Assembly (NCBI GenBank): GCA_029378245.1
Contig: JARKIF010000032.1
Location: 310,001 to 374,000, forward strand
DNA length: 64,000 bases
Source: Roridomyces roridus
Taxonomy: Eukaryota > Basidiomycota > Agaricomycetes > Agaricales > Mycenaceae
Direction: 5' to 3'
Below the pieces are notes generated by a model that worked only from the letters and a program-made list of their open reading frames with translations, was not told where the DNA came from and searched no databases. Below, one piece after another: positions 2,115 to 54,087 of the stretch; positions within the stretch are counted from its first letter, which is position 1; each line of letters begins with the position of its first letter. Made by a program: the position numbers and the translations under genes.

Positions 2115-4184
2115 ATGGTCCGCTCCAATCAAGCCACCACATTCTCCTCCTCCCCCTACTTTTACGACCGAGGCCACCACGGCACCGCCCAGCCCATTAC
2201 TGAACGGGTCTCTGTATGTCTTTCTCTCTCTCTTCTGCTTATTCTCACCTCCTCGAAAGCCTCACTCGCGTCCGATTGTATCGTATTACTTTCCGAAAGG
2301 CGTTGGTGCGCACCACTATGGGGTTCGTTCCATTCCTATAATTGCCACCGTCGCACTCACCAGTTATAGGAACGACACCCAATGAAACCTCACCGACTGA
2401 CCCTTACGAACGCTCTTGTGATGGGGTACGGGCTCGACAAACAGATTCAGAACATCTACGACGTCCGCGCCGCCACTCAAGCAGAACTCGAGGCATACCA
2501 TGACCACGACTATATCGAATTTCTCTCGAGGTAAACCTCACCGAATTATCGTGTTCTCCAGTCCTCATCTATGCGCAGAGTAACTCCGACAAATCAGTCG
2601 GAAATGCGACAAATGATCGACGTCTTCAACTGCGTGGAAGACTGCCCCATTTTTGCTGACTTGTACGACTTTTGTCGTATGTACACGGGTGCTTCATTGG
2701 CTGGTGCGCGAAAACTGTGCGCGCAGACGACCGATATCGCCATCAATTGGTCTGGTGGATTGCATCACGCCAAACGCGGCGAGGCCAGTGGATTTTGCTA
2801 TGTCAACGACATTGTTCTTGCCATTCTTGAACTTCTTCGGTGAGTTTATTTTTCAACTGTGTTTCAACTCGGCTCAATTCGCCTCAGATACCACCCCCGC
2901 GTTTTGTACATCGACATTGACATTCACCACGGCGACGGCGTCGAGCTCGCGTTCTACCAATCCAATCGAGTCATGACCGTCTCCTTCCACAAATACACTG
3001 GCGATTTTTTTCCGGGAACTGGGAAACTGGAGGACAACGGGTACGGACTCGGCAAACATTTTTGCTTGAACGTGCCTCTCAAGGACGGCATCGACGACGA
3101 CATGTATTTGGCCATTTTCAAGGACGTTATCCAGGACACTGTGGCTGCTTTCCGGCCAACGTCCATTGTCCTCCAATGCGGCGCAGATTCGCTCGGCTGT
3201 GATCGCCTGGGTGCGTTCAACCTGTCGATCGCAGCACACGGCGAATGCGTCAACTTTGTTCAAAAATTCAATGTCCCCCTCTTGGTCGTCGGCGGCGGAG
3301 GCTACACCATCAAGAACGTCAGCCGCTGCTGGACGTACGAAACCTCTGTCCTCGTTGGCGCGGAAATCCCCAACGAACTGCCAGCGACGGTTTACGATTC
3401 CTTCTTCAAAGACTCGCACTGGAAACTCCACCCGCCGATCACGGGCAAGGTGGACAACCAAAATTCCCTCGCCTCGTTGCAACGCATCACCATCAGCATC
3501 AAACAGAAACTCCGCTATTTACAGGGCGCGCCGAGCGTACAGATGCAGGAGATTCCCCCGGACATTCAGGGATTCTTGCAGGACGAGGAACGTTCGCCAG
3601 AGGAACGAGACGAGGAGATGAATGGGACGGCGTTTGCCGGTGAGCGGAGGAGCGATCGCGTGACTACGCGGAACGATTATTTCGAAGGGGACAATGATAA
3701 TGACCAGGATGATGTGCTGCCGACGCCGCCACCCCCGCCACCCCCGCCAGTCAGCACGCGTGGCAGGGGTGTGGCCGGTGGCCGGCGCGGTCGGCCCGGG
3801 AGACCGCGTGGGAGAGGCAGAGGGCGCGGTCGTCCGCCTGCCGTGCGCGTCGCGATGGATGATGATGACGACGAAGAGGAGACGGAGGAGGAGATTCAGA
3901 GACGACGACGACTGCCACGAGCTGTAGTCCCTCGAGGTGGTGCTGCTGCTGCTCGCTGGGCTTTGGCCAGTCCCAGTCCGCCTTCCCAGCAAGATGATGA
4001 TGAAGAGACGGAGGATGAAGAAGACGATGATGATGATGACGACGACGACGTATCGAGCAGGCGCGGTCGACGCGGTCGCAAACCCAAGAGCCGAGGCAGA
4101 GGGAGGGGCAGAGGCGCTGCGACAACCAACCGAGAGAGCCCGATGCTCCCGCCTTCACAGATACTCGATATGATACTCGACTGA
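2115..4184 (+). CDS. Class I histone deacetylase, HDAC3/HOS2 type, with long charged tail
   Basis: Exons 2115-2213, 2260-2322, 2370-2530, 2579-2839 and 2888-4184 give 626 residues. The deacetylase domain is complete: [26 protein letters not shown], the zinc-binding [12 protein letters not shown], the FPGTG loop, [13 protein letters not shown] and VVGGGGYT. Details such as [12 protein letters not shown] and the NQNSLASL region with the PSVQMQEIP segment point to the HDAC3/HOS2 branch rather than RPD3, so a Set3C-like corepressor is the expected partner (inference). The last ~190 residues are unusual: a Pro run, RGR-rich basic blocks and runs of Asp/Glu alternate. The stop codon is only 7 bp from the stop of the convergent glucosyltransferase gene. 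Confidence 0.95.
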
Positions 4185-32069: not shown

Positions 32070-33413
32070 CTAGTGCGTTCCCTGCGATCCAATCGCACCC
32101 ACACTATCCATCGGTCCCACCTCAACGAACATCCCATCTTCCCTCAAAAGCTTTAAACCATTCACGAACCTCGCACCCAAAGCAAATTCAACATCCCCAC
32201 GAACCCAACCAAACGCAAACCGCCCAAGTCGCGCAGATTGCGGGGGTCCCTCGTGAACAGTGGGCCACCTCCGTGCACGCAAAGCACCAAGGAGGGGATC
32301 ATACAGGGAGAGCGGCACTGGCGGGCGGGATACGACGTCGGTTATGAGCAGGTCCGTGAGGTTGGGAAGGATAGCAGGCCTAGAGTCGTCGTCGTTGGGA
32401 GTAAGCAGATAGAAGAGACTCTCGCTCGCTTCCTTGTCGGCACCTCTAATATTTAGCTGTGCGAGTTCGGGCATCTCGGCGAGCCACGCGCTGCGTCCAA
32501 CGTGGCGCGCAATTTGTGGTCCGGTAACCGTGAGGGAGCGTAGCGAAGTAGACGAACGTTGAATGAACGCGTCTAGAGCTGGACAAGGTTGGACTCCGAG
32601 ATGAAGTTTTCGGAGTCGAGGCATCGTTAACGCGTCCCATAACGACGAGAGATTCGTATGAGCGCTAGTCAACTCGAGAATCTCTAATGGGCAAGTCAAC
32701 TGCAACTCCGGCGCATCGCCGTGCGCCACATCCAAGAAGCGACATTCCAACAATCCCTTTCCCGCCGCCAACACCCGTACGCATTCAGCAAGCCCGAGCT
32801 TCACGGCGGTGAACCTCGTCAGCTGGCTCCACGGAATGATGCACTGGTGGTACGGCGGCAACGTATGTTTATGCCCGACAATCTCGAGCCGCACATCGCG
32901 GAGCTTCCCAGCGGATTTGAACGCCGGAAAATCTTCATCCACGAGCCCCCAGCATCCCAGCGTGAGAGTCCGTAACTGAGGAAGACCCTCGGGAAAGGGA
33001 AGGCTGTTGAGACAGCGGTAGGACAAGACCAATTTGGCGTCGAGCCAACGGGCTGATCGCGAGATGAGAAGGTGTACGAGGGCCTGTGAGATGGCGCTAT
33101 CAAAGTTGACCCGAACGTTGAGCGAGAGGGCGCTATTTTGGCCTCGTTCGAGCCAGACCCTGACGAGGGAGAGAAGCCCCGCGCTTTTGAGAGGCCGGGT
33201 CACAGCCAAAGTGAGTCTGGACCAGAGGAGGGGCGTCGACAAGGCAATGCAGCGCCATCTTGCACAGACGCGGCCGAGAAGCAGGGGTGCGTCTCTTTGC
33301 GAGGGGTGACGGTCATCAAAAGGGATGCAGTGGGTGAAGATGGCGCCGACGATCTCCACGGGGAGGTCGTGGATTCTGATGGGATGGCTCGTAGTGGAGG
33401 TTGTGGTGGCCAT
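32070..33413 (-). CDS. F-box protein with degenerate leucine-rich repeats
   Basis: Intronless, 447 residues. The F-box lies at residues ~11-60: IRIHDLPVEIVGAIFTHCIP, then LLLGRVCARWRCIALSTPLLW. This LP-E-(I/L)-..I-..CVCRRWR..A...P.LW layout is standard in the large mushroom F-box families. The rest is made of irregular leucine-rich segments (LPQLRTLTLGCWGL, ECRFLDVAHGD, LEILELTSAH, MPRLRKLHLGVQ, LAQLNIRGAD). F-box proteins recruit substrates to SCF ubiquitin ligases; the target is unknown. The frame is fully open and no damage is seen. Confidence 0.88.
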   Translation of the reverse strand: MATTTSTTSHPIRIHDLPVEIVGAIFTHCIPFDDRHPSQRDAPLLLGRVCARWRCIALSTPLLWSRLTLAVTRPLKSAGLLSLVRVWLERGQNSALSLNVRVNFDSAISQALVHLLISRSARWLDAKLVLSYRCLNSLPFPEGLPQLRTLTLGCWGLVDEDFPAFKSAGKLRDVRLEIVGHKHTLPPYHQCIIPWSQLTRFTAVKLGLAECVRVLAAGKGLLECRFLDVAHGDAPELQLTCPLEILELTSAHTNLSSLWDALTMPRLRKLHLGVQPCPALDAFIQRSSTSLRSLTVTGPQIARHVGRSAWLAEMPELAQLNIRGADKEASESLFYLLTPNDDDSRPAILPNLTDLLITDVVSRPPVPLSLYDPLLGALRARRWPTVHEGPPQSARLGRFAFGWVRGDVEFALGARFVNGLKLLREDGMFVEVGPMDSVGAIGSQGTH

Positions 33414-34176: not shown

Positions 34177-35477
34177 TCAACCTCGACGGCCTTGCGTCTG
34201 AATGAAGCACCGGTCAGCTGATGAAACTTTTATGAGGCAAGACACACCGAATGTTGCCTTTCTCCTGCACACATGTTGAGAGAGCGAAGAATTGGGAACA
34301 AACTCGCACTCGACGCCGGGGATGAGATGCATAGCAGGGAGGTCGTCCCTTTCGTTTAGGTCCGAGATGAGGATCAGGAACGCCTCCGTGGTAGCGTACA
34401 GCAACTATGTTGATGAGTCCGGGTCGAACGGAGGTATTCATTGACTTACTGTCCCGGGGATATTCTGTGCGACCATCCATGCTTCGTCCTCCGGATTTAA
34501 TGACGCTCCCGTGTAGATGATTTGGCGCATATTCTTCAAGTTGTCCAACACACCCTGGTTGGTTCTGGCGAACTTGAGAAGATTGGACAATCACGGAGCG
34601 TAGAGGAAGAGACGATTAACGCCCGCCTCCCTGCTCAGTTGGAGTAATTCCTCGGCGTCAAAGTCGGAGCGCGACGTCTGAACGTTGCAGTCCCCGCGCA
34701 GAGACAGGTAGCTGATGGCTTTATGTCGGTCAGAGCAGGACTTGGCAAGGCAAACATCACATACAAGAAGCGGACCCGACGTGTAAGTACGAGCCCAATT
34801 TGCTGTAAATGTCTTGCGTTTCGAAGGAGCCTTGGTTGAGCCCGCGCCATTGGGATTGTTGACCTTTGAGATTACGATGGGTGACAGGAACGGGTTTTGG
34901 CCTGCCGGAAGTCGTTCCGCTGGTGTGAAGGATCATGGCAGGCTCGTCTTCTGCGACGTCTAGCAAAGGCTGAAGCGGGTCCGAAGAGGATTGGATAGTG
35001 TCTAGTGCTGGGAGACAAATCGCAGGCAGATTGACATGGCCTTCGACCGCTGCAGCAAAGGTAGGATCATAAAGCAATCCTTTCCCTTTGCAAGCAGCGA
35101 GCAAGTCCCGGACGACGTCGACACTCAGGTAATTGACACTGAAAAGTTGAGGGATGAACCCCGCCCGGATGAGGGAATATATGTGAATCAGGTCGGTGTA
35201 CTTTTCTCCGGTGGCCCTAGAGACAGTCGGACATGAGCCTGGTCGATAATTGAGACACCGAGCACCATAAGCCAACAGCGTCGGAGGAATTGAAGCCTTG
35301 CGACGATAAAGTCGCGCGCCAATGGCGGCCAACGCGGTCGGTTTCGTTCCGAAAGTCCTCGTAGGTGACGGAAAGCCAGGTCTTCTGTCCTGCTGCTCCC
35401 TGAACGAGTTGTTTGAAGAGGGGGCGGTCTCGATACTTTTCCCAGGCGGTGAGCACGTCGGTCAGAAAATGAAGCAT
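34177..35477 (-). pseudogene. Adenylate-forming (AMP-binding) enzyme, truncated and interrupted
   Basis: Starts at ATG 35477 (MLHFLTDVLTAWEKYRDRPL). The exon from about 35170 holds the DPTFAAAVEG region and the ATP-binding core motif AMILHTSGTTSGRPKPVPVT. It is similar to the N-terminal adenylation domains of fungal NRPS-like reductases. Two faults are seen. A TGA at 34591-34593 lies in frame inside a conserved stretch (NRLFLYAP, stop, LSNLLKFART). The domain also ends soon after LLYATTEAFLILISDLNE and HLIPGVECEF, before the rest of the adenylation fold. A related fragment is at about 41640-41880. It is unlikely to give an active enzyme. Confidence 0.75.
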
Positions 35478-39262: not shown

Positions 39263-40931
39263 TTAAATATCCCCGCGCTGCCCCTGGTCAACGGGCATGA
39301 GCTCGAACGAGTTCGCACAAGTAGTGGTGTTAGAAAAGTGAAATTCGAGCGTCGGCTGCTCAGTAGTAATCACTGTATCCGACGTGAAATCTGCTTGCTC
39401 CCGGATGGATATAAGAAGGCGGTTTGCTAAGACAGCAGGGATTGACAAGCTGAAGCCCGTCCAGAGTTCGTCGAGCGTCAACTGGTAGAGAGATTATCGT
39501 GTTCATCCTATACGCAAGGATGTGCAATCGACTCACGATGTTCATCATCCAAGTTGTCACAGTTCCAAGGTGAACAAGTGATATCCTGAAGATCTCAATG
39601 AATGCCAGGGATTGAACATAGGTATTCATGCTCACGCAAAGAAAAACCAGACAGATTCTTTCATCAACTTGGGGAGAATTTGACCGCTTGGGATCTCTGA
39701 GCGATACTGCTGCCATGCTTTGAACACGGCCAGCAAGAATATAATGAACTCCGTTATCAAGAGTATCACTGGCACGTAGGCGATCCAGTGGCCGTGGGGG
39801 GGATCACCGTCGGCACAGATGAATAGGTCGGTGGACGGGTTGTTGGTGGCTGTATTGGAATCAAATTGCTGCAACGCCATTCAAGGACCAGACATACCGA
39901 CAAGACCGGGCGCAGGCAATTCGAGGAGGATGATGAAACCGGTGAGCTCTATAGCCAGGAGGAGCACAAGAAATGCCAAAATCCTCTTGCTGCGTCCGTA
40001 CATCGCATACAGACGAAGCGACAAAATCACTGTATTCTTTCGACAGGGTTTGATAAGTACTTGCGACAAGACTGACTTTGATTGAGGACATGTTGTAACG
40101 CTGATCCGCCATTTTGCCAGTGAAAGAAATCCGAGCCTGGTTTCAAAGAGGAGTCAAGTTTGACGAAGGTCCGAAGGTAAAACACTATTACTTACATCTG
40201 CAGACATTTATCTCTTGCTGAGCGATTCCGAAGAATGAACCCACAACTGGAGTGGCCGAAATCATGAGCGAGTGTGGTGAGTGAAAAGTGTATGGACCTG
40301 CCTTGGCAGAAGCATCGCGCTGCGCGAAGACTGGAAGTAGGACGGACAAATAAGCATTGGCATGAAGAATCCAGCCCATGGACGCACCCACAGCATCGGT
40401 CCTACCGTACAGTTAGACAGTTGTACGCACATAGGATCCAAGAAGCTCACAGATTGTAACCTAGGCTGTAGTACCGATTCTGAATTGAATTCGGGCTTAG
40501 ATTCTGGCAAGAGGAAGCAAACAAAATGCGGACAAATAGGAAAAGGCATTTGGCCACCGTCCATTTGGGCCGACTCTTCAAGACAGTCAGAACGGGGCAG
40601 TATGTTTTGCAAAACCCGCAATGGACGCACCCAGAATAAGCTGATCTAGATATCAATGCCATGGTGAGCCTAGACTACATCTTCATCCTCAAAGGAGCAC
40701 TCACTTCTTTGGGAAAGTGCATGACTGCCGCAGGTTTGCATCGACTGGTAGCATTTGATTCGTGCTGGATTCACTCACAGAACTCGTAGACCACGATAGT
40801 GGCGGCGGCAACTGTAAGGAAGATGAGCACAGGAGTTGCAGGTAACTCATTCAAAGTCCGCATGACTGACGTTGGCAGTTTCGCTCCCATTGGGCGTGCT
40901 CGAAGGCTTGGATGTCGATGGGAGTATCCAT
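39263..40931 (-). CDS. DUF6533-domain seven-helix membrane protein, copy B
   Basis: Starts at ATG 40931 (MDTPIDIQAFEHAQWERNC), spliced to LAAATIVVYEF. Then RPKWTVAKCLFLFVRILF, LSLRLYAMYGRSKRILAFLV, the VPVILLITEFIIFLLAVFK helix, AWQQYRSEIPSGQILPKLM, and LDELWTGFSLSIPAVLANRL. The tail ends at 39263. It matches copy A (28899-30565) exon by exon with high identity. RVWP-type acidic-basic boundaries of DUF6533 are only partly conserved. No stop or frameshift is obvious, but exon borders near 40200-40450 are approximate. Function unknown; receptor-like roles have only been guessed for such families. Confidence 0.74.
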
Positions 40932-41639
40932 GAAATGGGCGGAGGGAAGGCAGGACTCAACGGAGATTCCATTCAAATTTATCTGAGCCAAATTATGCAT
41001 GATCGGCGACGAAGGGGTGAGATTTTTGGTTCATTTTTGGTCCGTTGATGCACCTGCAGCGCTCAACGCCCAGCCTTGTATCAGTGGCTCGTCATTCGGC
41101 ATTTGTGCCCTACGTACCTCCTGCACAGGACAGCTCAGAGGGCAGAAAATCCTGGGGTGGTCGCCAACCTTCCCTACGAATCTCCACTTAGAACTGGGCG
41201 TGTGTCAAATTAGCCGCCACCAGTGACAGTTCTACGGCGTCTCACCACATGTAACTTCAGCTCCCAAACGGTCTCAACAGCACAAGCGCATTCAGCAACG
41301 GGCAGCAACGGGATTCTCCTTCGATTGAATACGCCGTCACCCGTGACTAGTACTGACGCTGTCTCAAGGCCAGGTCACACGGTATTACACCGAGGACGGA
41401 GTCGATAACAACTATTTGCGGTGGCAATAGCTTCATATTGTGTAGAATTATGTGGATCTGGGAACTTAGCGACTGGAGGGGAAGCAGCCAAACACACCAT
41501 GAGAACTCGCTGTACATATTTCCGGAATTCATTCCCGTTGATGCATAGAATCCAGGTGGGATAGATCATCGGTGCCGGGAATGCTTGATTATGTTGATGC
41601 TCCCGAGGAATAGGTCTTCGTGGACTCAGGATTGCAACA
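40932..41639. other. Intergenic region
   Basis: About 700 bp upstream of DUF6533 copy B. Shares a near-identical ~25 bp with 26178-26205. No gene supportable. Confidence 0.35.
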
Positions 41640-41880
41640 CCTGTATGTAGCCAGCGCGACGTCTGGACGGTGCAGTCCCCGCGCAGAGACAGGTAGCTGA
41701 TGGCTTTATGTCGGTCAGAATAGGAGTTGGGAAGGCAAGCATCACATGAAGCGCTTCCTATGTGACAATGAGCCGAGCTTGTTGTAGATGTCTTGCGTTT
41801 CGAAGGCGTCTTGGTTGATCCCGCGAAATTGGGATTGTTGACCTTTGAGGTTACGATGGGTCACAGGAACGGGTTCCGTG
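41640..41880 (-). pseudogene. Fragment of adenylate-forming enzyme gene (second remnant)
   Basis: Read on the - strand, 41872-41765 encodes PVPVTHRNLKGQQSQFRGIN and QDAFETQDIYNKLGS. It matches the exon after the core motif of the pseudogene at 34177-35477 almost residue for residue. The similarity runs on at DNA level through the following intron (about 41640-41745 against 34670-34780). The SGTTSG core and everything before it are missing. It is a partial duplication with no chance of an active product. Confidence 0.8.
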
Positions 41881-42318
41881 GAACGCGTCCTGGCTTGAGT
41901 CATAGCGCGCCATTGCCTCTGCAACGACGGCAGCTTCTTGGGCAGTGGGATACATGGTGGTGGAGAATAAGACGAGTCAAGATCATTCCTCAAGCTGGTG
42001 CAGCGCGACCAAGCAGCGAGTCGGAGATTGCTCGCCAGAGAAAGGAAAGGCGGGATTGTGATGGCGGATCATCGATCATCGATCATCTCCTCTCCTTGAC
42101 GAAATTCGCACAAGACGCTTCGAATGGATTCAAGACACGAGAAGATAAGAAGACAAGGCAATTCAAGAAGAAGAAAATTTCAAATTCAAAGCACGAAAAG
42201 AGATGGAAAAAGGTGGATTGCATAGACTACTTACACGATACATGGGGCATAAGGCATATAATGATACATTTCTGATTGTTTTCACAGTCCGATTCACGAA
42301 AGCAAGTCAATAGCAAGT
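41881..42318. other. Intergenic region downstream of hydrophobin locus
   Basis: About 440 bp. A-rich, lysine-coding-looking stretch near 42140-42210 without family features. No gene supportable. Confidence 0.4.
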
Positions 42319-43617
42319 TTAGAGAGTGGTCGGGGAGCAGTTGAGACCGGTGCTGCCCTTGAGCTGCGAGCAAGCGCAGGGAGAGAGGCCGGCGCTGCAA
42401 CTCTTGGCTCCATAGATCGACGACACAGCCTGGCAGGCCTGGGCAATCGCAGAGCCGACTTCAGAGCTGGCCTTGGTCAATCCGAGCTGCTGAAGGAGGC
42501 TCTCAGCAACGGAGGTCTCCGCTTGGACGATTTTGCTGCAGCAGTAAGTGTCGCGGCCGCCAATCGAGCCCGAAGAGCTCGTGGTCGTGGCCTGCGTCGT
42601 GGAACTGGTGTGGGTAGTGGCGGCTGCGGTGCTGCTGGTGCGGACGGTGGACGAGTAAGCCGGGACCGTAGAGGAGCGCACAGCTGAAGAAGAGACGACG
42701 GGAGCGGTAGAGCTCGGGCGGCTGCTCGGAGAAGGAGCAGAGGAGCTCGGGCGAGCGGCCGAAGAAGAGGCAGCGGCGCTGTTGTAACGAGCAGATGAAG
42801 ACATCACAGAGCTGCTGGGACGGGGAGCCGAGGAAGATGCCGCAGCGGAGCTGGAGTGGGCCGAGGAGGAGGGTGCCGCACTGCTGTAGTGATCGGATGA
42901 AGACATCACAGAGCTGCTGGGACGAGCAGCCGAGGACGATGCCACGACGCTGCTAGGGTGAGCGGAGGAAGAGGCCGCAGCAGAGCTGGAGTGGGCGGAA
43001 GAAGAGGCAGCGGCACTGCTATAGCGAACGGATGAAGAAGCTGCAGCAGAGCTGGAGTGGGCGGAAGAAGAGGCAGCGGCACTGCTAGAGCGGGCAGATG
43101 ATGAGGCTACAACAGAGCTGTAGCGAGCCGATGAAGAGGCGCTGCTAGAGCGGGCAGATGATGAGGCTACAACAGAGCTGTAGCGAGCCGATGAAGAGGT
43201 GCTGCTAGAGCGAGGAGCCGAGGAGGCAGCGGCACTGCTGTAACGAGCAGACGAGGATGGAACAGCAGAGCTGGGGCGAGCCGTGGAAGAAGAGGCAGTG
43301 GCACTGCTAGAGCGGGCAGATGATGAGGCTACGACAGAGCTATAGCGAGCCGATGAAGAGGCACTGCTAGAGCGAGCAGCCGAGGAGGAAGCGGCGGCGC
43401 TGGAGCGAACGGAAGATGCTGCGGCGCTGCCCAAGCGAACTGATGAAGCAGAGCTGCTACGGGCGGCGGAGGAAGAGGCCGCGCTGCTGTAATGAGCAGA
43501 TGAGGGCACCGCAGAGCTAGAGCGGACTGATGAAGCAGAGCTCGAACGAGCGACGGACGACGAGGCCGCGCTGCTGGGACGAGCAGAGGAGGAGACCGCA
43601 GAAGAACTGGGGCGGAC
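42319..43617 (-). pseudogene. Cut-off 3' extension of the hydrophobin gene: linker 3 plus third cysteine domain
   Basis: The frame of the upstream gene continues without shift past the TAA at 43618-43620 for 432 codons. It first gives another Ser/Ala linker (SSSARYSSVVASSSARSSSA type, ~330 residues), then a cysteine domain at the C-terminus: DTYCCSKIVQAETSVAESLL, AQACQAVSS, GAKSCSAGLSPCACSQLKG, STGLNCSPTTL. It resembles a class I hydrophobin domain, but the first Cys is missing (Ile at the spot) and the second CC pair reads C-A-C. There is no start codon with a signal peptide, so it is not a separate gene. It would be made only by stop readthrough or in a strain without the nonsense change. 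Confidence 0.7.
43081..43200. repeat. 60-bp tandem duplication in linker 3
   Basis: Two 60-bp units (43081-43140 and 43141-43200) are identical except at their first and last bases. A diverged third copy lies near 43305-43365. Twenty codons per unit keep the frame. Confidence 0.9.
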
Positions 43618-46600
43618 TTATGAGGCAGAGCTGCTACGAGCGGTTGAGGAAGGAACGGCAGTGCTGTAGCGAGCAGATGAAGAAGCGCTACTGGAACGAG
43701 CGGCCGATGACGAAGCCACACTTGAGCGAGCCGATGAGGAGGTAACGCTGCTAGAGCGGGCAGCGGATGAAGACGGGCGGGCCGAAGAGGACGAGTGAAC
43801 GCTCGAAGCACCGGCGCTCGAAAGCGAGACTGGAGAAAATATAAGTTTTTCGTCTTTTTGTGAGTAGATAGAGACTTTACCGCTCGAGCAATCAATGCCG
43901 ATGGCGTTGAAAAGAGTCTTGCAGCATTGCAGAGGACGCTTGGAACCAGAGCTTGCAAAGGAGTCAGAACGAAATTCTTAACAACAAACCAAATACTCAC
44001 CAAGACTTGGTTCCGTCAGCAGCAATGGTGGCAGGGACACACGCCACACCGATGTTTTGTCCCACATTCAAAGAGGACGAGACACCAGCATCGTTCAAGC
44101 AGCTGCTGCCGTAGGGGCTAGTGGGAAGCTCGATGGTGTCACAGCAGAAAGTGCTCTGTCCGTTGCACGAAACCGATCCAGAGGCAGATGGCGAGGCGCT
44201 CGAAGCTGTGCGGGACACGGAGGCCGAGCTCGAGAGACGGGAAGCTGATGTTGATGCCGACGAGTGGACGGAGGCAGAGCTGGAGTGGGCCGCAGACGAG
44301 CTGCTGGCACGAACGCTCGAGGCTGAACTGCTATGAACAGAGCCGGTAGCCGAGGAACTGGAGTGGGCGGAAGAGCTGCTGGGACGAGCGCTGGAAGCCG
44401 AGCTGCTACGGACAGAGCTGCCAGCCGAAGAGCTAGAGCGGGCGGAAGATGTAACCGCGCTGCTGGAGCGAGCTGATGCCGATGATGCCGATGCCGATGA
44501 GTGGACGGAGGCAGAGCTGGAGTGAGCCACGGAAGAGCTGCTGGGACGGACGCTCGAGGCTGAACTGCTATGAACAGAGTTGGTAGCCGAGGAACTGGAG
44601 TGGGCAGAAGATGCACTGGAGCGAGCTGATGCCGATGCCGACGAGTGAACGGAGGTAGAGCTGGAGTGGGCCGCGGACGAGCTGCTGGCACGAACGCTCG
44701 AGGCTGAACTGCTATGAACAGAGCCGGTAGCCGAGGAACTGGAGTGGGCGGAAGATGCAACCGCGCTGCTGGAACGAGCTGATGCCAATGATGCCGATGC
44801 CGATGAGTGAACGGAGGTAGAGCTGGAGTGAGCCGCGGAAGAGCTGCTGGGACGGGCGCTCGAGGCTGAACTGCTATGAATAGAGCTGCTAGCCGAGGAA
44901 CTGGAGTGGGCGGAAGATGCAACAGCGCTGCTGGAGCGAGCTGATCCCGAGGATGCCGATGCCGACGAGTGGACGGAGGCAGAGCTGGAGTACGCAACGG
45001 AAGAGCTGCTCGAATGAGCGCTGGAAGCAGAGCTGCTATGAGCAGAGTGAGCGGAAGATGCTGATGCCGATGATGCCGAGCTGGAGCGAATGACAGATGA
45101 TGACGTCACAGCCGAAGAGCGTGCCGAAGCAGAGCTGCTAGCCCGGATGCTGGCGGAAGAGCTCTGGCGAATGCTGAAGGAGCTGGCAGAGCTGGAGCGA
45201 GCCGAAGACGCCGCAGCGCTGGCAGATGAGCTGTAGCGAACCGTGGATGACGACGCGGCGGAAGAGCGAGCTGAAGAGCTGCTGGAGGAGCTCGAACGAG
45301 TTCCGGACGATGAAGCAGAGCTAGGATGCGTAGAGCTGCCGGCTACGACGCTGGAATGGGCCGATGAGACAGCAGAACTGCTGGAACGAGCCACAGAGGA
45401 TGAAGCACGAGCAGAGGACGAGCTCGGGGCATAGACAGATGAGGAGCTGCTGCGAGCGCTGCTAGATGCCGGGCGGGATTGAGAAGCGGAGCTGCTTGCA
45501 CGGATGGAAGAGGCCGACAAAGAGGCGCTGCTTGCACGGGAAACTGAGGCAGATGACGAAGCCGAGCTGCTAGGACGCGAGGATGAAGTCGCGCTGCTCG
45601 AATGAGCCACAGAGGAAGATGCAGACGACCGGGGTACCGAAGAGGAAGCACGGGAGCTGCTTGCACTCGCAGAAGAGTAACCGGATGGACGAGACACCGA
45701 GGCAGAGCTAGCACGGGACGCCGACGAGGATGGAACGGCGCTGCTGGAACGAGCTGCAGACGACGACGCGGAGCTGCTGGCATGCGAAACCGACGCAGAG
45801 CTGCTGAGACGCGATGCAGAGGCCGATGCAGAACCGCTCGAGCGGGCTGAAGCAGCTGAAAGAAATTTCGTTAGAATTGGAATACAGAAATCACTTGTAT
45901 AACTTACCCGAACTGCTCAAGCGAGAGGACGATGAAGGGCGAGCGCTGATGCTGGAAGCAGAAGATGCGACCAAGCTACGAGCACTGCTTGAAGGCGCCG
46001 AGGAAGAGTGGAACACCGAAGACGACGAATAGCCGTGAGAGCTGCTCGAAGAACGAGGCGCAGATGATGAAGCAGAGCTGCTAGCCCGGGTGGAAGCCGA
46101 AGCAGACGAAACACGGGCGCTACTCGAAGCCGACGCAGAGCTGCTGGCACGGGAGACCGAAGCGGAGGCGCTGGCGGAACGAGATGCCGAGGCACTGGAG
46201 CTGCTGGCCCTGGAGACACTTGACGAGGCGCTTGCAGAGCGAGACGCTGAAGCAGAGACTGCAGAGCTGCTAGCGTGGGAGGCAGAGCTGCTAACTCGGG
46301 AAGCACTGGAGACCGAGGCACTGGCAGAACGAGATGCGGAAGAACTGCTGACGTGAGCCGATGCCGAAGCCGAAGAGCTGCTAGCCCGGGATGCAGACAC
46401 GCTGGAAGCAGAAGAAGAAGCGTGAACACTGCTCGAAGAGTGCGGTGCGGAGGATGAAGTGCTAGCCCGGGTGGATGCCGAAGCGGCAGAGCTACTAGCC
46501 CAGGACGCGGACACGCTGGAACCCGAAGCAGACGAAGAAGGGCGAACGCTGCTAGAAGAGCGGCCAACTGAAGACGAGGCAGAGCTGCTCACACGGGAGA

Positions 46601-48764
46601 CAGAAGCCGAAGCACTGGCAGAACGGGATGCCGAGGCAACGGAGCTGCTAACCCGGGAGGCGCTAGAAGCCGAGGCGCTCGCAGAGCGAGACGCTGAGAC
46701 AGAGACCGCGGAACTGCTAGCGCGGGATGCAGAGATGCTGGCGCTGGCGGAACGGGATACCGAAGCAGAGGCCGAGCTACTGACCCGAGACGCAGAGCTA
46801 CTAGCCTTGGAGGCAGAAACGCTGGAAGCAGATGAAGACGGGCGAGCGCTGCTCGACGAGCGAGCCATCGAGGAGGAAGCAGAGCTGCTCGATGCCGGAG
46901 CCGATGAGCTGCGAACGCTGCTCGAAGAGCGAGCGACGGAAGCCGACGAGGCAGAGCTGCTTGCACGGGAAGCAGAGGCATATGCTGAGCTGGTGGCACG
47001 GGAGGCACTGCTTGAGGAACGGACCGCAGAAGAAGAAGCGGAACTGGCAGAGGAATGACCGTAAACCGAGCTGCTGGCACGAGAAGCAGACGCAGACGCT
47101 GAGCTGCTAGCCCGGGAGGCACTGCTAGAAGCCGACGCAGATGCAGAGGAGCGAGGGATCGACGCCGACGACGCAGAGGCGCTCGAACGTGATGCCGAAG
47201 CGGACGAGGAACCACTGGGACGCGAAGACGAAGACGAAGACGAGGCCCGGACACTGCTAGGTGACGACGAGCGAGCAGAGCTGGAGCTTGCACGGATTGA
47301 TGCCGATGCCGATGAGCTGCCAAGGCTGCTCGAAGAGCGAGCGACGGAAGCCGACGAGGCAGAGCTGCTTGCACGGGAAGCAGAGGCATATACTGAGCCG
47401 CTGGCACGGGAGGCACTGCTTGAGGAACGGACCGCAGAAGAAGAAGCGGAACTGGCAGAGGAATGACCGTAAACCGAGCTGCTGGTATGAGAAGCAGACG
47501 CAGACGCTGAGCTGCTAGCCCGGGAGGCACTGCTGGAAGCCGACGCAGATGCAGAGGAGCGAGGGATCGACGCCGATGACGCAGAGGCACTCGAACGCGA
47601 TGTCGAAGCGGACGAGGAACCACTGGGGCGCGAAGACGACGAGGAGGCCCGGATGCTGCTAGTTGACGACGAGCGAGCAACAGAAGCAGAGCTTCCAACA
47701 GAGCTGGAGCTTCGGATCGATGCCGATGACGAGCTGCGAGCGCCGCTGGAAGAGTGGGGCGCCGAAGAAGACAAGGCGCTGGCCGAAGAATGACCAACGG
47801 AGGAGCTCGAACGTGCACTGGAGCTAGCGGAAGAGCGAGACGCCGAAATCGACGACGCAGAGGCGCTCGAACGTGATGCCGAAGCGGACGCAGAGCTGCT
47901 CAAACGCGAAGACGACGACGAGGCACGGAAACTGCTGGCCGACGCCGAGTGAGAGTTAGAAGATGCAGAGCTGCTGCTAGCACGCGAGGCGCTGGACGCC
48001 GAAGCCGAGCTGTGAGCACTGCTGGAAGAGTGGGGCACCGAAACCGACGACGCAGAGGCACTCGAACGCGATACCGCGGAGCTGCTCAAACGCGAAGACG
48101 ACAACGACGATGCACGCGCACTACTCGAGGACGACGACGAACGAGGGACCGATGCAGAGCTGGAGCTTGCATGGGCCGACGTCGAGGACGCGTGTGATGA
48201 AGAGGTAGACGATGCAACTGAACGCCATGAGCCCGTGGTTCTGAATACATAAGAAAGATGGCACTCACTCTGTGTGCAGTCTACACCAACTCCAGTACCG
48301 GCGATATTTCCGCAACATTGTGCGAGAGTGCTTCCAGATGAACTAGAGAATAGTTAGCCGAAAGAAGAAGGTTGAAAAGAAGTGGACTCGCCATTTACCA
48401 CCTGCAGCAGCGACAACACAACCGGTACCGACATACTCGCCACAGGTACTCGAAGGTACACCGAGGCCACTGAGTATATTTTTGCCAGCAGAGCTGCTGG
48501 TAGAATCGAAGCCCGAACAGCAGAATTTTTTCTTTGTTCCGCAAGTGTAGGGCGTGGAAGAAGGCGTTAAACGCTTGACGGCGCCTATAACATCGTCAGC
48601 CAACGACCAAAGATAAGAGGAAGAGACTCACCGGGAGTCCGGCGCCGGGGAGGGAGTGGAGGTAAGCCGCGAGCCAACCGACGAGCGTTGGTGTCTTGAG
48701 GGAGAGCGTCGACGGCGACGAAGGTTGCGAGAGAGAGGGCAGAGAGCAGGATTGTGGTCTTCAT
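43618..48764 (-). CDS. Giant secreted multi-hydrophobin-type protein with Ser/Ala-rich linkers
   Basis: Seven exons: 48764-48632, 48584-48392, 48342-48269, 48217-45908, 45855-44001, 43951-43881 and 43829-43618. They sum to 4,848 nt, exactly in frame, 1,615 residues. A signal peptide (MKTTILLSALSLATFVAVDA) leads to cysteine domain 1 (YTCGTKKKFCC, SSTCGEYVGTGC, KCSSGSTLAQCC, VGVDC). Then comes a linker of ~770 residues, about half Ser, with Arg/His/Tyr every 5-8 positions. Linker 2 is ~560 residues. Domain 2 follows (VSCNGQSTFCC, IGVACVP, KSCSGSKRPLQCC, IGIDC). The C-(5,6)-CC...C...C-(7,8)-CC-...-C order fits class I hydrophobins, which coat hyphal surfaces; normal members are ~100-150 residues. 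Intron 2 has a GC donor. A cell-wall or surface-coat role is inference. Confidence 0.85.
46905..47680. repeat. 408-bp tandem duplication in linker 1
   Basis: Two near-identical units are offset by 408 bp (for example CTCGAAGAGCGAGCGACGG at 46921 and 47329). That is 136 codons, so the reading frame is kept. Differences are a few substitutions and a short in-frame indel near 47230. It shows that the linker grew recently by unequal exchange. Confidence 0.88.
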
Positions 48765-48815
48765 GAGTCGTTAAAGCGTTGTTTCGTTGATGCTGGATAG
48801 CGAAAACCTCCCTGG

Positions 48816-48823
48816 CTTTTATA
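48816..48823 (-). promoter_or_regulatory. TATA box of the hydrophobin-type gene
   Basis: TATAAAAG on the - strand, 52 nt before the start codon. Strong TATA boxes close to the start are common in highly expressed hydrophobin genes. Confidence 0.6.
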
Positions 48824-50454
48824 GCATTGCTGAAAAAAAGTCTGGACCGTTAAAGGAGAGGATAGGGGGCGGATGTGGAGTGAGACATGGCGGAACGACT
48901 TGCTTCCACGGAAGCAAGCGGAAGCGAAATTCCTGCTGCTTTTTGCACGCATGGTGTATATAGGAAGAAAGAGAAAAATCCGCCCAACCCGCCGCCCAAA
49001 AGACCGTAATTTTTGGTCTACGGGACGCCGAGATATAGCGAAAATGGGCTCCAAGGCGGTGCAAGACATAGGAGAATTTCGTCTCGGAGGTGGGCCCAGG
49101 CTCTCGGAGAGCTCGGATAGACTGCAGAAAGTCAGACGTATCCCAATTCTCTTGAATCTAGGCCTGGGTGAGGGAATTTGGGGCATCGGTGCGTTTGATG
49201 TGGTGGTTCAGATTCAACAAAGTGGGTCACGGTCACATGACATCAAGTCGAGAGAGCACGAATCTTCTACTTACTATTTCATTGTCCAAGTATGTACTCA
49301 CCTACTGAGAGCAGTACTTAGTCTCCACCCTCCCCTAAATTGAGCTCATACTTCGCAGCTTCGAGCATAAAGAACACCAGATTCGACAATGTTCCCCGCA
49401 CAAGCATTCCACCTCTGCTCCACCGTATCCGCCACTTTCCCACCAGTCGAGATCTGGCACCCCAAAAGTTGACGAAATACAGCCTCCGTTAAATCTCCTC
49501 CGTCCATTCGAAACATTCGTCACCACCACAGGTATACCTTGGAAAGGACAGCGTCTCCTCCCCAGTTTCGTCTTCGTCGTCGTCGGTAGCCGCCCAGACA
49601 CGATTCCGGTCGAAAGAGACAGCGAAATGTTATAATCAGATGGACTTGCCCGAAGAATCACGCCTTCCGCCGCACAGACGCTTGAATAAAAGCGGCTTTT
49701 GTTCGTTGGACTTGTCGTTGATGGGTTTGACGAGGAGTAGCTCCTCATCGTCGAGCGCCCAGCTGCTGTGATAAGCACGGTCGACAGCTATGTAGTATCC
49801 GAATAGTTATTTCCATCCGAGTCCGCGTGTGACAGGTTGGTTGAGGACCTTGAGGTGGCACCAACTGCCATTGCTTGCTCGCAATGAGTACGCGCCCATT
49901 ATTGTTGTCTGGAAAGTCGAAAGAAACCGTCCTTCGACTGCTGTTGGTTCAAGAAGGCGGAACTCACGGGAAATTACATTGGCCTCAGGGCTTCGGGACA
50001 GGCGTCTCGCGTAGATAACACTTGGATGACATTCGGCTCGGATCTTGTCTTGTCCAGCATGACCTCGAGAGCGAACGTGGGGAGTGAGGAGCGCTTCGTG
50101 CAGATTTTATTCCGTGCAAAGAACGAGAGATGCAGCGATGGCCACCCAGTGGAGCGTGTCGAAACTTGAGAACCAACTTCGGGCCATGCAGCCGATTTTC
50201 TGCCTACAAGTGCGCCCAATCGGATAGCGTATTCCGCGAGAAGAGGCAACGTTGGTATAGTGGCTCCGGAGAAGACCTGAGGAGACAAACGTGGGTTGAT
50301 TGATCCACTACAAAAATGTTGAGCACGACCCAACGAAGGAGGTGCCCTTGTACCACCCCAGTGCGTCCTCCGTCCCAATGCCACCCTTTCTGCGCTGATT
50401 CACCCAATCAGCGGCACTTGACAGATACTTTTGGGCTAGGCTTTCGACCGTACC
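48824..50454. other. Intergenic; upstream region of hydrophobin gene and unrecognised frames
   Basis: About 1.6 kb. On the - strand, 49790-49640 and 49600-49520 show coding-like stretches (AVDRAYHSSWALDDEELLLV; ATDDDEDETGEETLSFPRYT) broken by stops. I do not recognise a family. They may be a decayed gene or chance. Nothing else is supportable. Confidence 0.35.
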
Positions 50455-51294
50455 ATGCACGCAGACTCGGTCTCTACGGCTCTTGTCACGACTATTCTTA
50501 CGATCGTCCTCCACCATGTGCTACGGACACTTTACGCCACCAAACGCCAGCGGTCGTGGATAATCACGGCCTTGTCTAGTGCTGCGACGACGTTCGGCAG
50601 CCTTCCCTTCCTGTGGGACGTTATATCGTCTGGTGGGGATGTAACGGCGCTGCAGCCGCGGTACTCCTTTGCGGCCTTGGTCTGCCGCTTGTTCCAGGGC
50701 CTCCTCCTCGCCGATCTCATCGTCGGTTGCTGCTGCTATGCCGAACACATCACGATCGCATGGGGCATCGTTCACCACACCGCTTATATCGCTCTCTTGA
50801 GCTACCTCATACCCAGCGGTGCAGCGCATTGCTTCTGCCTCGCCGCGTTCATGGAGCTCCCCACCCTCCACCTTGCACTATCGTTCCTCCACCCCCGCCT
50901 ACGACACGACGTGCTCTTTTGCGCGCTCTTCTTCGCCACGCGCATAGTCTTCCACATCAGCCTCATCTTCGCCTTCTCAACGAAGCTCGGGATGACTGTC
51001 GTCCAGGGGAACCCGCTCCCCCTCGTATTCCTCACATTGGCCCTCCCCGGCCATGTCATGTGGTTCTCGCAGAGTGTGCGTGGTACCATCCGCAGGAGCA
51101 GGGGCAGCAGTAAAGTTGAGGTGGAGGAATGCCCGACGACGCCGACGGAGGAGCTCTCCTCGGAGAGCCAGTGGTCCAGCGTTTCTTCTGATTCGGATTC
51201 GGATGTCTCGTCCCCGGTTACTCCCACCTTTGAGGCTTCGGGTCCAATGTGGGATCGTACACATGTGGATCTCCCGTCCATTGTATCATTATAG
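50455..51294 (+). CDS. TLC-domain (TRAM/LAG1/CLN8-type) membrane protein
   Basis: Intronless, 279 residues. The helices start with VTTILTIVLHHVLRTLY. The TLC-type core is residues ~75-205: LVCRLFQGLLLADLIVGCC, a VHHTAYIALLSYLI helix containing the conserved His pair, ELPTLHLALSFLHPRLRHD, and ATRIVFHISLIFAF. The E-(L/x)-PT-..L motif followed by a helix with R-(x)2-FH is characteristic of TLCD/CLN8-like proteins rather than ceramide synthases. The Ser/Glu-rich tail (SSVSSDSDSDVSS) is cytosolic. Such proteins act in membrane lipid composition; the exact substrate is unknown. Confidence 0.75.
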   Translation: MHADSVSTALVTTILTIVLHHVLRTLYATKRQRSWIITALSSAATTFGSLPFLWDVISSGGDVTALQPRYSFAALVCRLFQGLLLADLIVGCCCYAEHITIAWGIVHHTAYIALLSYLIPSGAAHCFCLAAFMELPTLHLALSFLHPRLRHDVLFCALFFATRIVFHISLIFAFSTKLGMTVVQGNPLPLVFLTLALPGHVMWFSQSVRGTIRRSRGSSKVEVEECPTTPTEELSSESQWSSVSSDSDSDVSSPVTPTFEASGPMWDRTHVDLPSIVSL

Positions 51295-51723
51295 AAGGAG
51301 GTAGTTGGCCCAGCGTTGGTAGACCAGCTGGTGCCGTTGCACCTCGGAATGGGCATGGGCCGAGGGTTGAATAGAAGTACAAACTAGTGTATTTTTTGTA
51401 CTTGCTTTATGTAGAATTTGAGGGATTTTCGAGGAAAGGATTTGCAGATTGAGTGTTGGCTAACTTGGCCTGTGGGCCGTTGACCATCTTGATGGCGCCG
51501 CTTTCTTCCGTCCACAACCTTGCCACAACCGCAATCCAACTTGAACCTTTCCACAACGCAGTCTTACTTATTTACCGATACACCGACACACCGATATTTC
51601 CTTTCTCACTCGGCCACATCACGCACAAGGAGATTCCCTCGTAGTCGGCCCCACTTGGAATGACTGCCCTTTTTGAATCGCTATCCACCGTGACTCTGCA
51701 CTGTGCATCCGATTCCTTTCATT

Positions 51724-52001
51724 GAAGTCACTCGGAAAATCTATGGTCTGACGTACCACGGCGAACTCTCGGATTTGCTTGGACCCCTTTTTCGTTCAAA
51801 CCCCCTCCTCGCTTTCGACAATTGACTGCGCTCGATCAATACAATAACAAGAATCGAAGTCCCTCGGAAAATCTACGGTCTGGCTTGCCACGGCAACGGC
51901 GAGCTTTCGGATTCGCTTGGCCCCCGTTTCGTTAACACCGTCTGGGCTTTCAAGTTCGACATTTCACTTGTTTGCGTTCGATGAATACAATAACAAGAAT
52001 C
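51724..52001. repeat. Direct tandem repeat of 132 and 146 bp upstream of HNH-like gene
   Basis: Unit A (51724-51855) and unit B (51856-52001) both start GAAGTC-CTCGGAAAATCTA and end CAATAACAAGAATC. The shared blocks include CTTTCGGATT-GCTTGG-type sequence and TCGAT-AATACAATAACAAG. It lies about 500 bp before the HNH-like gene and could hold repeated regulatory sites. Confidence 0.8.
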
Positions 52002-52495
52002 CCACCAGCGTTTGAAGTCAACCGTTGGATGGCAACGAGGCGGATTCGCCCCCCCGACGCCCGGCTCATCTCACATCGCTCGCCGCGCTGGGGAATCGGG
52101 GGAGAGGCCTTCGAATACATCTTCTCTGTTCTGGCATGCGGCGTAGTGCTTTCCTTCTCAGACGCCGCCCTGATTCAATCTTGGTGTGAACTTGAATCTT
52201 CCTTTTCGCGCAATTATCTCATGGGTCCTGATCTTGGGATGATTTTCTCCGTCGTTGGCATTCAGGCTTCAGGTTTTGACTGGGACTGGTGTCGGGTCGA
52301 GCGATTTCGGAACGAATCTCTGCATAATCTAGCCATCGTCGTCAATCAATTCGAGCTTCTTGAATCGGATTCGCCCAATTGTCTAGATGACGAGATCATT
52401 TGTGGGCGCTATCGGCGCCTATAAAAGACTCTCTTTGTTCTTTCGCTTCGTTTGCTCTTTTGGAAATCGCTATCATTCCAGCATCTTTGCCCACC

Positions 52496-53922
52496 ATGTC
52501 TGACCCCTTCAGCAGCCCAACTGCTCAGCCTGGTTCGACTTTCGACCCTTTCGGATCGCCTCTTACTCCCCTCCCTCCCTCCCTCCCCGACCCCAGCCAC
52601 GGCCGCAGTCAACAGCGTCTCGCATCCACATCACCTTCTACCCTCGACGATGCGGCCACGGATCCGCCGCCCAGTCCGCCGAGTCCATCTGAAACGAGGA
52701 GGATCAAAGCCTTATCGGCCAAATCCCGGTCGACGTACACCTCCTCTTCATTGGGAGATGAAACAGAAGCCTTCGGGGTGCACACATACACTCCGCCTTC
52801 TGACGTCGAGGAAGAGGACAAGGAGCGTATAATTTTTGAGGATCCTACTCAGCCGGACTCAGACGAGCTAAAAGCCCCCGATTTCACCGGGCAGCAGCAG
52901 GAGCCAAAGACGCGCAAAGTGCTCAAAGTGATCAAGGAGAGTCCGAAGACACGAGTTCTAATTACCAAGTCCATCAAAACTCAGGCGAAGAATCTCGTCC
53001 GGGCTATCGACCCCAACTCCGGATATTGCATCCTCACCGGCAAGCTGGGGCCCATTGTCGCTATTCAATTCGCCCATGTCACACCTCGGGCGACAAAGGC
53101 AGGCAATGTGGGTTTTCTCCCCTCTCTGTTCGAGAATGAGGTCTGACGTGTAGCGTTGTTAGTTGACGGTCCTCGAGTGGAAGTGGGGCATGAATTTTTT
53201 CTCCCTCTACATCGACACCCGTTTCAATCTCATTCTCCGTAAGCCCGTAAATCGCTCTTTGCACTGCGGCTGAGTCGCAAATAGTGAAATCTGACTGGCA
53301 TATTGCCATGGACAGCTACCAGTGGGCACTTGTTCCCCACTATAAGATCGTCCGTGAACTTCATGAATGGGTGTTAGCACAAAAGGTCAAGGGCGGTCGT
53401 CCCCGGCCAATCTCCGAAGTGAGCCAGTGTTGATTGCTTTCCGATGATGAATCTCACAATTTCCCGACTCAGTTTTTGAAGGAGGCAAACAAGCAACCTT
53501 CAGCATCACAGCCGCAGGCTTCGACATCATCTCAAGCCTCCCTGTCCACATACACATACTTCATGCTGCCCCTGACTACGGCTCTGGATTCTCCCCTCCA
53601 TCGCATCGTGGACAACAAAAAAGTGGAGTGTGCTCCTCCGTACGAGGACCTCGGCCCTCTCAAATCGCATGTACAGCCGCATTTTGTCGTCTATGCCCTC
53701 GGTGCAAAACTTGCGGCAAAACGGGAGGAGCTGAAAGATGGGTACAGCAGCTGGTTGGAGCAGCTTTCGAAGGACGCATCATTCGGGCAAAGTGGGCGAA
53801 GGGCTGCGGACCAGGTCAAGACGACGCTAAATCGAGTGCGCGATATCTATGCAGAATGGGGACCCGATGGCGAAGTCCCTGACGAGGGGGATGTGTGGTA
53901 CAAGAAGATAGGTGGTGACTAG
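52496..53922 (+). CDS. HNH nuclease-like protein
   Basis: Exons 52496-53107, 53163-53238, 53285-53418 and 53473-53922 give 423 residues in frame. The N-terminal ~150 residues are Pro/Ser-rich and disordered. The HNH-like part is residues ~170-300: DPNSGYCILTGKLGPI, VAIQFAHVTPRATKAGN, LEWKWGMNFFSLYIDTRFNLIL, and SDWHIAMDSYQWALVPHYKI. The three expected residues (His in FAHV, Asn in RFN, His in DWH) are all there, as in the HNH_2-type domain proteins common in mushrooms. The C-terminal part is helical and charged. The biological role is unknown. Whether it cuts DNA cannot be told from sequence. Confidence 0.75.
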
Positions 53923-54087
53923 GACTAGATTACCTCGCAAGTTACTCCATGTTGCCAGTTTTGTCTCAATGTACATGTTTGACAATGTTTTGGACTGGCG
54001 TGATCGTGACCATCAATTATCACTTGTCCTGAACGGTCAACTTGACGCGTCCCCGAGTCCCTGGTCCCTGGTGGCGGCTCAAAGCAA

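Follow-up and report, generated by a model that had tools for sequence, protein, structure and literature searches.

A three-domain gene and its copies in Roridomyces roridus

Positions 310,001 to 374,000 of contig JARKIF010000032.1 from the mushroom Roridomyces roridus form a 64,000-nucleotide stretch (hereafter the window, to which all coordinates refer unless a contig is named) that carries on its minus strand a long gene with hydrophobin-type domains. Hydrophobins are textbook small proteins that coat fungi and repel water. An earlier note on this DNA described a chain of 1,615 residues in which two such domains are set on giant Ser/Ala linkers. The domains and the linkers stand, but the count and the length do not: judged by reading frame, gene modelling and comparison of copies, the coding span is 42319..48764, in seven exons, and encodes three domains (D1, D2 and D3), with 2,048 sense codons in a second assembled copy, while the window copy carries one in-frame stop. 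In the protein of the second copy the order is leader, D1, a linker of about 1,330 residues, D2, a linker of about 420 residues, and D3.

Genome searches in which the three domains and the leader served as queries yielded seven assembled copies of the gene with three domains: those in the window and on contig C248, three on contig C1 (C1a, C1b and C1c), and those on C312 and C458. No internal stop interrupts five of these copies (C248, 2,048 residues; C1a, 1,823; C1b, 1,926; C312 and C458, 1,906 each), and three loci besides that of the window are open with equal layout. C1c (C1:1201000-1209500, L036) can be modelled only by placing three poor introns in the linker, each of which looks like a break in the frame. 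The leader was found at nine places in the genome, all belonging to the giant-hydrophobin family, and on C325 a D3 lies within 1 kb of the contig end.

The gene starts with an ATG at 48764, from which the frame runs for 1,615 codons to a TAA at 43620-43618; this seven-exon, in-frame model, as given in the earlier note, was reproduced exactly. A TATA box, also noted there, lies 59 bases upstream of the ATG (48816..48823, minus strand, as are all features of the gene); it is at -65 in the paralogues C1a, C1b and C312, and was not seen in the sister gene on C168 and C346, described below, within the 150 bases examined. Exon 1 (48632..48764) encodes the N-terminus, which by inspection is signal-peptide-like, as had been proposed, and a propeptide, DTNARRLARGLPPLPPRRR. 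Exon 2 (48392..48584) encodes AVKR, which we take to be a Kex2-like site, and the first part of D1, and exon 3 (48269..48342), 3' of a GC-AG intron (48391-48343), encodes the end of D1. This intron begins with GC, and at its position C312 and C458 read GTGAGT and C1b reads GCAAGT. D1 (48276..48543) contains nine cysteines, the canonical eight (Cys1 to Cys8) plus one between Cys3 and Cys4. Linker 1 (44177..48217) occupies exon 4 (48217-45908), an intron (45907-45856) and most of exon 5 (45855-44001), and includes an internal duplication of 408 bases with 93% matches (46891..47679), an example of how linkers may lengthen. D2 (43888..44167), again with nine cysteines, spans the end of exon 5, an intron (44000-43952) and exon 6 (43951-43881). 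The cysteines of the two domains lie at residues 59-131 and 1467-1543, with 1,335 residues between them, bearing out the wide separation already described. Two intron positions, rather than the one reported, are common to D1 and D2: in the codon of the fifth canonical cysteine and just after the eighth. The introns after D1 and after D2 (the latter at 43830..43880) are in an equivalent place and each 51 bases long; since the post-D2 intron is 52 bases in C1a, 53 in C1b and 44 in C312 and C458, it is not read through in those copies. Linker 2 (42567..43829) is followed by D3 (42337..42543), with seven cysteines, and by the stop that ends the frame of the family (42319..42321); the last 12 coding bases, including this stop, are identical in C248, C1a, C1b and C312.

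The TAA at 43618..43620, which the earlier note took for the gene end, falls within linker 2, and downstream of it the frame continues for 432 codons without a further stop, through similar linker and D3, to 42321-42319. Window positions 27726-56797 were assembled a second time as contig C248 (29,595 bases), which lacks the internal stop: from 40172 to 53959 the sole difference between the two sequences lies inside that codon, and the 2,048-residue C248 protein matches that of the window except at residue 1616. We consider it likely that the family is functional and that the stop in the window copy is either a null variant of recent origin or an error in the consensus; C1c likewise looks frame-broken. 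Lacking the last head, the window copy would yield the 1,615-residue form. A 75-base intron that skips the stop can be drawn, was chosen by the gene modeller for the window and would speak against a null variant or error, yet its splice sites are weak and it is unused in C248, and we rejected it. C248 is short (29.6 kb) and matches the window almost perfectly; it may represent another haplotype or be redundant in the assembly. Two 3-kb flanking queries matched at 100% only in C246, the contig of the window, and in C248, as expected if the two copies differ by a recent variant or an error, a result that fits a haplotype as well as a redundant contig. Other contig pairs diverge more, with proteins 99.3% identical between C312 and C458 and 90% between C168 and C346.

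Were the TAA the true end, the gene would make a two-domain product of 1,615 residues and the downstream frame would be a relic. The stop is indeed present in the contig of the window, but C248 is open, four more assembled copies at three loci run open to D3, and no other stop has entered the 432 downstream codons, whose D3 shares 92-94% identity with its counterparts at the other loci. In addition, relatives were sought in other mushrooms, as the earlier note had proposed, and in a Mycena rosella protein a single frame runs from the end of D2 through a linker into D3, which supports D3 as part of the gene. We therefore regard a genuine end at 43618 as improbable. As a separate observation, at window positions 34291-34357 C248 has about 534 extra bases, with 13 clustered base differences beside them; elsewhere the two sequences differ little except near the ends of C248.

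A sister gene, and relatives in Mycena

A sister gene with a related leader, 67-70% identical to that of the window gene, is present at C168:381291-394000 and C346:104541-117500 (L040-L043). Six of its domains are full and the seventh is shortened; the last exon of the seventh was read by eye past the end of the model, and a KR stands directly before this domain. The modelled lengths, 3,508 and 3,617 residues, are approximate because the modeller, which is biased towards Ser/Ala frames, places many short introns in the linkers; the fifth domain of the C346 model has 11 cysteines, probably because an intron was retained. At C79:566000-579000 (L044, L045), further hydrophobin-type domains flank, one at each end, an open stretch of 1,241 codons in which Ser plus Ala account for 65%; the locus probably encodes a similar giant with two domains.

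Two protein searches returned eight relatives, all from Mycena (M. kentingensis, M. rosella, M. vulgaris, M. latifolia and M. galericulata). Each search scored about 8,000 candidates, those sharing most words with the query; the restriction to Mycena holds within these candidates, and other genera are thus not excluded. A third protein search, for which Ser runs were masked and an X tail was added, gave no match; it also missed two known relatives of suitable length, and is therefore uninformative on absence elsewhere. Seven of the eight relatives are named hypothetical and one bears the name of another gene, which suggests why such genes stay unseen. The latter, a 1,029-residue M. kentingensis protein named as a small nucleolar ribonucleoprotein subunit, contains two D2-like regions and is likely a misannotation, in which the gene model fuses hydrophobin regions with a ribonucleoprotein subunit. 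Several of the eight look, from their sequences, as though they contain linker read out of frame. The Pfam hydrophobin family PF01185 is part of the database annotation of two of them. In the M. rosella protein, D3 has no first cysteine, and Cys-Ser-Cys replaces the second cysteine pair.

Composition of the linkers and selection on them

Ser makes up 49.5% of the 1,615-residue model, in line with the earlier estimate of about half. Linker 1 is 55% Ser, 21% Ala and 7% Arg, with 95 Arg and 40 His. Asp and Glu are absent from its 1,330 residues and occur once in the 421 residues of linker 2, hence once in 1,751 residues jointly, and the computed isoelectric point is 12. The protein part of the chain has a computed mass of 186 kDa. 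The regular spacing of Arg, His and Tyr claimed for the linkers proved to be far more even than in shuffled sequences. For Arg/His/Tyr/Lys in linker 1 the coefficient of variation of the spacing is 0.32, whereas 2,000 shuffles gave 0.93 on average and never less than 0.73; in linker 2 it is 0.46, compared with a shuffle mean of 0.91, and 24 of 48 gaps are 10 or 11 residues.

A protein-guided estimate of the ratio of nonsynonymous to synonymous substitution rates (dN/dS) may be biased for low-complexity linkers; hence, we repeated the estimate on DNA alignments and with neutral simulation. Across five pairs from four loci, linker dN/dS was 0.21-0.29, compared with neutral simulation means of 0.87-0.92 and a lowest single run of 0.68. 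Four of these pairs had no out-of-frame linker codon, and the remaining pair had 11. These five are drawn from six possible locus pairs; C248-C1b was left out, with a protein-guided value of 0.31, and C1c was excluded because of its frame breaks, and C458 because it nearly duplicates C312. For the sister gene, compared between C168 and C346, the linker dN/dS was 0.42, compared with a simulated 0.86, with 10 out-of-frame codons. In a comparison of the linkers of four genes, in which 1,220 of 1,749 codons could be aligned in all four, the residues unchanged throughout were 90% of Ser (659 sites), 74% of Arg, 59% of His, 42% of Tyr and 40% of Val, and positions with Arg, His, Lys, Tyr or Trp had lost their class in 24 of 402 comparisons. 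We conclude from these alignments that the linkers are coding and under protein-level selection.

These results bear on whether the linkers are low-complexity DNA, or an artefact of assembly, devoid of protein meaning. The linkers do have the look of a simple repeat, and the gene contains 16 of the window's 21 tandem-repeat rows. Nevertheless, the frame is kept at independent loci under selection on the protein, introns, TATA box and stop context are held in common, and the homologues come from other assemblies, such that an artefact is scarcely credible. The earlier note had named artefactual linkers as a finding that would overturn its proposal; this is contradicted for the family, and the internal stop alone may be a variant or an error. 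The note had likewise considered that the locus might break up into separate small genes. None of the three Met residues in the linkers is followed by a signal-peptide-like stretch, and D2 and D3 therefore have no visible secretory start of their own; separate small genes appear unlikely on this evidence.

Alternatively, the chain could be a precursor that is cut into separate hydrophobins, like the Kex2-processed repeat proteins of Ustilago (Rep1, and putatively Hum3). The propeptide sites are well kept, with RR and KR in all six aligned Mycena homologues and RRR in four of them, and the sister gene has its KR before the last domain. However, we found no dibasic (Kex2-type) site in the two linkers of C248, about 1,750 residues together, despite an Arg content of 7%, nor in those of C1a, C1b or C312, and beyond residue 50 dibasic sites occur only inside D1 and D2. 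The lack of such sites in the linkers argues against processing of the Hum3/Rep1 type, and we think it unlikely that the chain is divided in this way.

Relation to hydrophobins and a possible tethered surface film

Eight cysteines are invariant in all 12 aligned domains of D1 or D2 type, in the order C-CC-C-C-CC-C, and a profile built from these 12 domains finds five hydrophobin sequences of solved structure (PDB), with E=7.8e-9 to 4.6e-4. A relationship of D1 and D2 to hydrophobins of known structure is thus supported at the level of sequence profiles. D3 does not show the eight-cysteine pattern: it has seven cysteines, with no Cys1, and Cys6-Ala-Cys7 in place of the adjacent pair. It is, on the other hand, the only one of the three domains to exceed the curated PF01185 cut-off of 23 bits (D3, 23.8 bits; D2, 17.5; D1, 12.4), and by itself it matches a solved hydrophobin structure, 5w0y, with E=0.0034. 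Among eight related domains compared with PF01185, seven match at E<=1 and three pass the cut-off (23.4, 29.9 and 24.6 bits), all of D1 type; another relative of D1 type scores 19.5 bits. If D3 is counted as a hydrophobin domain by Pfam, at least three domains in one frame behind one leader, the mark of a polyhydrophobin, are present in C248, C1a, C1b, C312 and C458.

The canonical cysteine spacings are 6/32/8/8/11 in D1, 6/33/12/8/10 in D2 and -/34/11/6/10 in D3, to be compared with 6/26-33/12-13/6/13 in the table given for basidiomycete class I hydrophobins in PMC3879219. In that table, agreement extends to Cys1/Cys2 (6), Cys3/Cys4 (32-33), Cys4/Cys5 of D2 (12) and Cys5/Cys6 of D3 (6), whereas Cys4/Cys5 of D1 (8), Cys5/Cys6 of D1 and D2 (8) and Cys7/Cys8 (11 and 10, compared with 13) depart from it, as do the extra cysteine between Cys3 and Cys4 and the absence from D3 of Cys1 and of an adjacent Cys6Cys7. 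By spacing, the domains lie near but outside class I as tabulated, and appear class-I-like in their long Cys3-Cys4 loop.

We propose that the locus is probably a giant polyhydrophobin gene, encoding an intact, three-headed secreted chain in which heads and linkers act as a tether. The secreted chain would consist of a propeptide and three heads, with D1 N-terminal, D2 about three quarters along and D3 at the end, joined by two presumably disordered Ser/Ala linkers with Arg, His or Tyr every 7-12 residues or so and almost no acidic residue. The propeptide would be removed at its basic sites, and the chain would most likely otherwise stay whole. The heads could insert in an amphipathic film at the outer surface of the hypha or fruit body, while the linkers, probably O-mannosylated, would reach into the wall and tie the film down as a tethered cationic brush, much like the tethered, heavily O-mannosylated coat that the earlier note had suggested. 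At 0.36 nm per residue, linker 1 would stretch to about 480 nm and linker 2 to about 150 nm; as an order of magnitude, this exceeds the typical thickness of a hyphal wall.

The odd cysteine numbers could also permit cross-links from chain to chain. This suggests another reading, in which the domains are mainly cross-linking modules of a wall mucin, with free thiols joining the chains by disulfides and the linker doing the work through adhesion, hydration or charge. The cysteine counts of 9, 9 and 7 would suit such a role, as would linkers that form most of the mass and are under selection. Nonetheless, the ninth cysteine is missing in D1 of C312 and C458 and in the first domain of C168 and C346; this argues that cross-linking is not essential, and we regard a mainly cross-linking role as unlikely, if less so than cleavage of the chain.

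Several observations weigh against a giant polyhydrophobin. The chain is predicted from DNA sequence. D1 and D2 are below the PF01185 cut-off, although both span the whole profile; so are five of the eight related domains, one of which has no match at all. D3 is without two defining cysteine features. Compared by itself with solved structures, D1 gave no match below E=0.3, and the best was not a hydrophobin. An exon-wise PF01185 search of the genome found 21 hydrophobin places, none of them in the window. AlphaFold models are poor, with a mean predicted local distance difference test score of 44 for D3 and 48 for a D1 protein. C1c is probably a frame-broken, decaying copy. Linker changes between C312 and C458 are 10 nonsynonymous and 3 synonymous, counts so tiny that they carry little weight, and linker Tyr and Val are constant at only about 40% of sites.

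Proteins with several hydrophobin domains in one secreted chain have been described before. The AlphaFold survey in PMC12375992 lists 138 multidomain hydrophobins with three to five domains, of which 126 are class II, biased to Fusarium, Trichoderma, Gibberella and Claviceps, and 12 are class I, biased to Fusarium; in its account of Claviceps the linkers are Gly/Asp-rich repeats. PMC10820438 gives polyhydrophobins as "more than 400 amino acids". The Roridomyces gene resembles the trihydrophobin CFTH1 and the pentahydrophobin CPPH1 of Claviceps, and the other proteins of the survey in PMC12375992, in having several domains per secreted chain, but it is from a basidiomycete, its linkers of about 1,330 and 420 residues are cationic and rich in Ser and Ala, and its sister gene encodes as many as seven domains. 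Hydrophobins with long disordered N-terminal tails, as outlined in PMC12375992, likewise join a low-complexity stretch to a domain; those tails are at least 70 residues long and precede the first cysteine of the domain, whereas those of the giant gene separate one domain from the next and far exceed such tails in length, by many times. Hum3 of Ustilago maydis (PMC4617103), 828 residues long, is also a large secreted protein with repeats and a hydrophobin domain. It has only one such domain, however, preceded by seventeen repeats of 31-36 residues, and putative Kex2 motifs separate fourteen of these repeats; the linkers here contain no such motif. In the open-licence literature, the titles and abstract openings among the top matches showed nothing evidently on such proteins of Mycena or other basidiomycetes. 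Most known polyhydrophobins are ascomycete proteins, and the giant Mycena-type gene looks like a new giant basidiomycete variant.

More tentatively, Mycena-type mushrooms might have evolved a separate giant family whose members carry two to seven heads and reach about 3,500 residues. Selection would maintain a Ser brush with evenly spaced cationic beads between surface-active heads, some of them with odd cysteine numbers, so as to form from a single chain a self-tethering film, perhaps covalently cross-linked, that differs from the monolayers of small hydrophobins; we hold this possible, with less confidence than the proposal for the locus itself. If intact chains of 1,800-3,500 residues are indeed made, a surface film can consist of polymers that reach into the wall, and these would offer a natural template for tethered amphipathic coatings.

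Elsewhere in the genome, 14 of the 21 places found by the exon-wise PF01185 search lie in C279:196000-540000, a large hydrophobin cluster. A Pfam scan of ten reading frames of the window left seven without a match. Neighbours of the gene identified by Pfam are a Per1-like protein (908-1987), a histone deacetylase (2859-4184) and an F-box-like protein (32070-33413).

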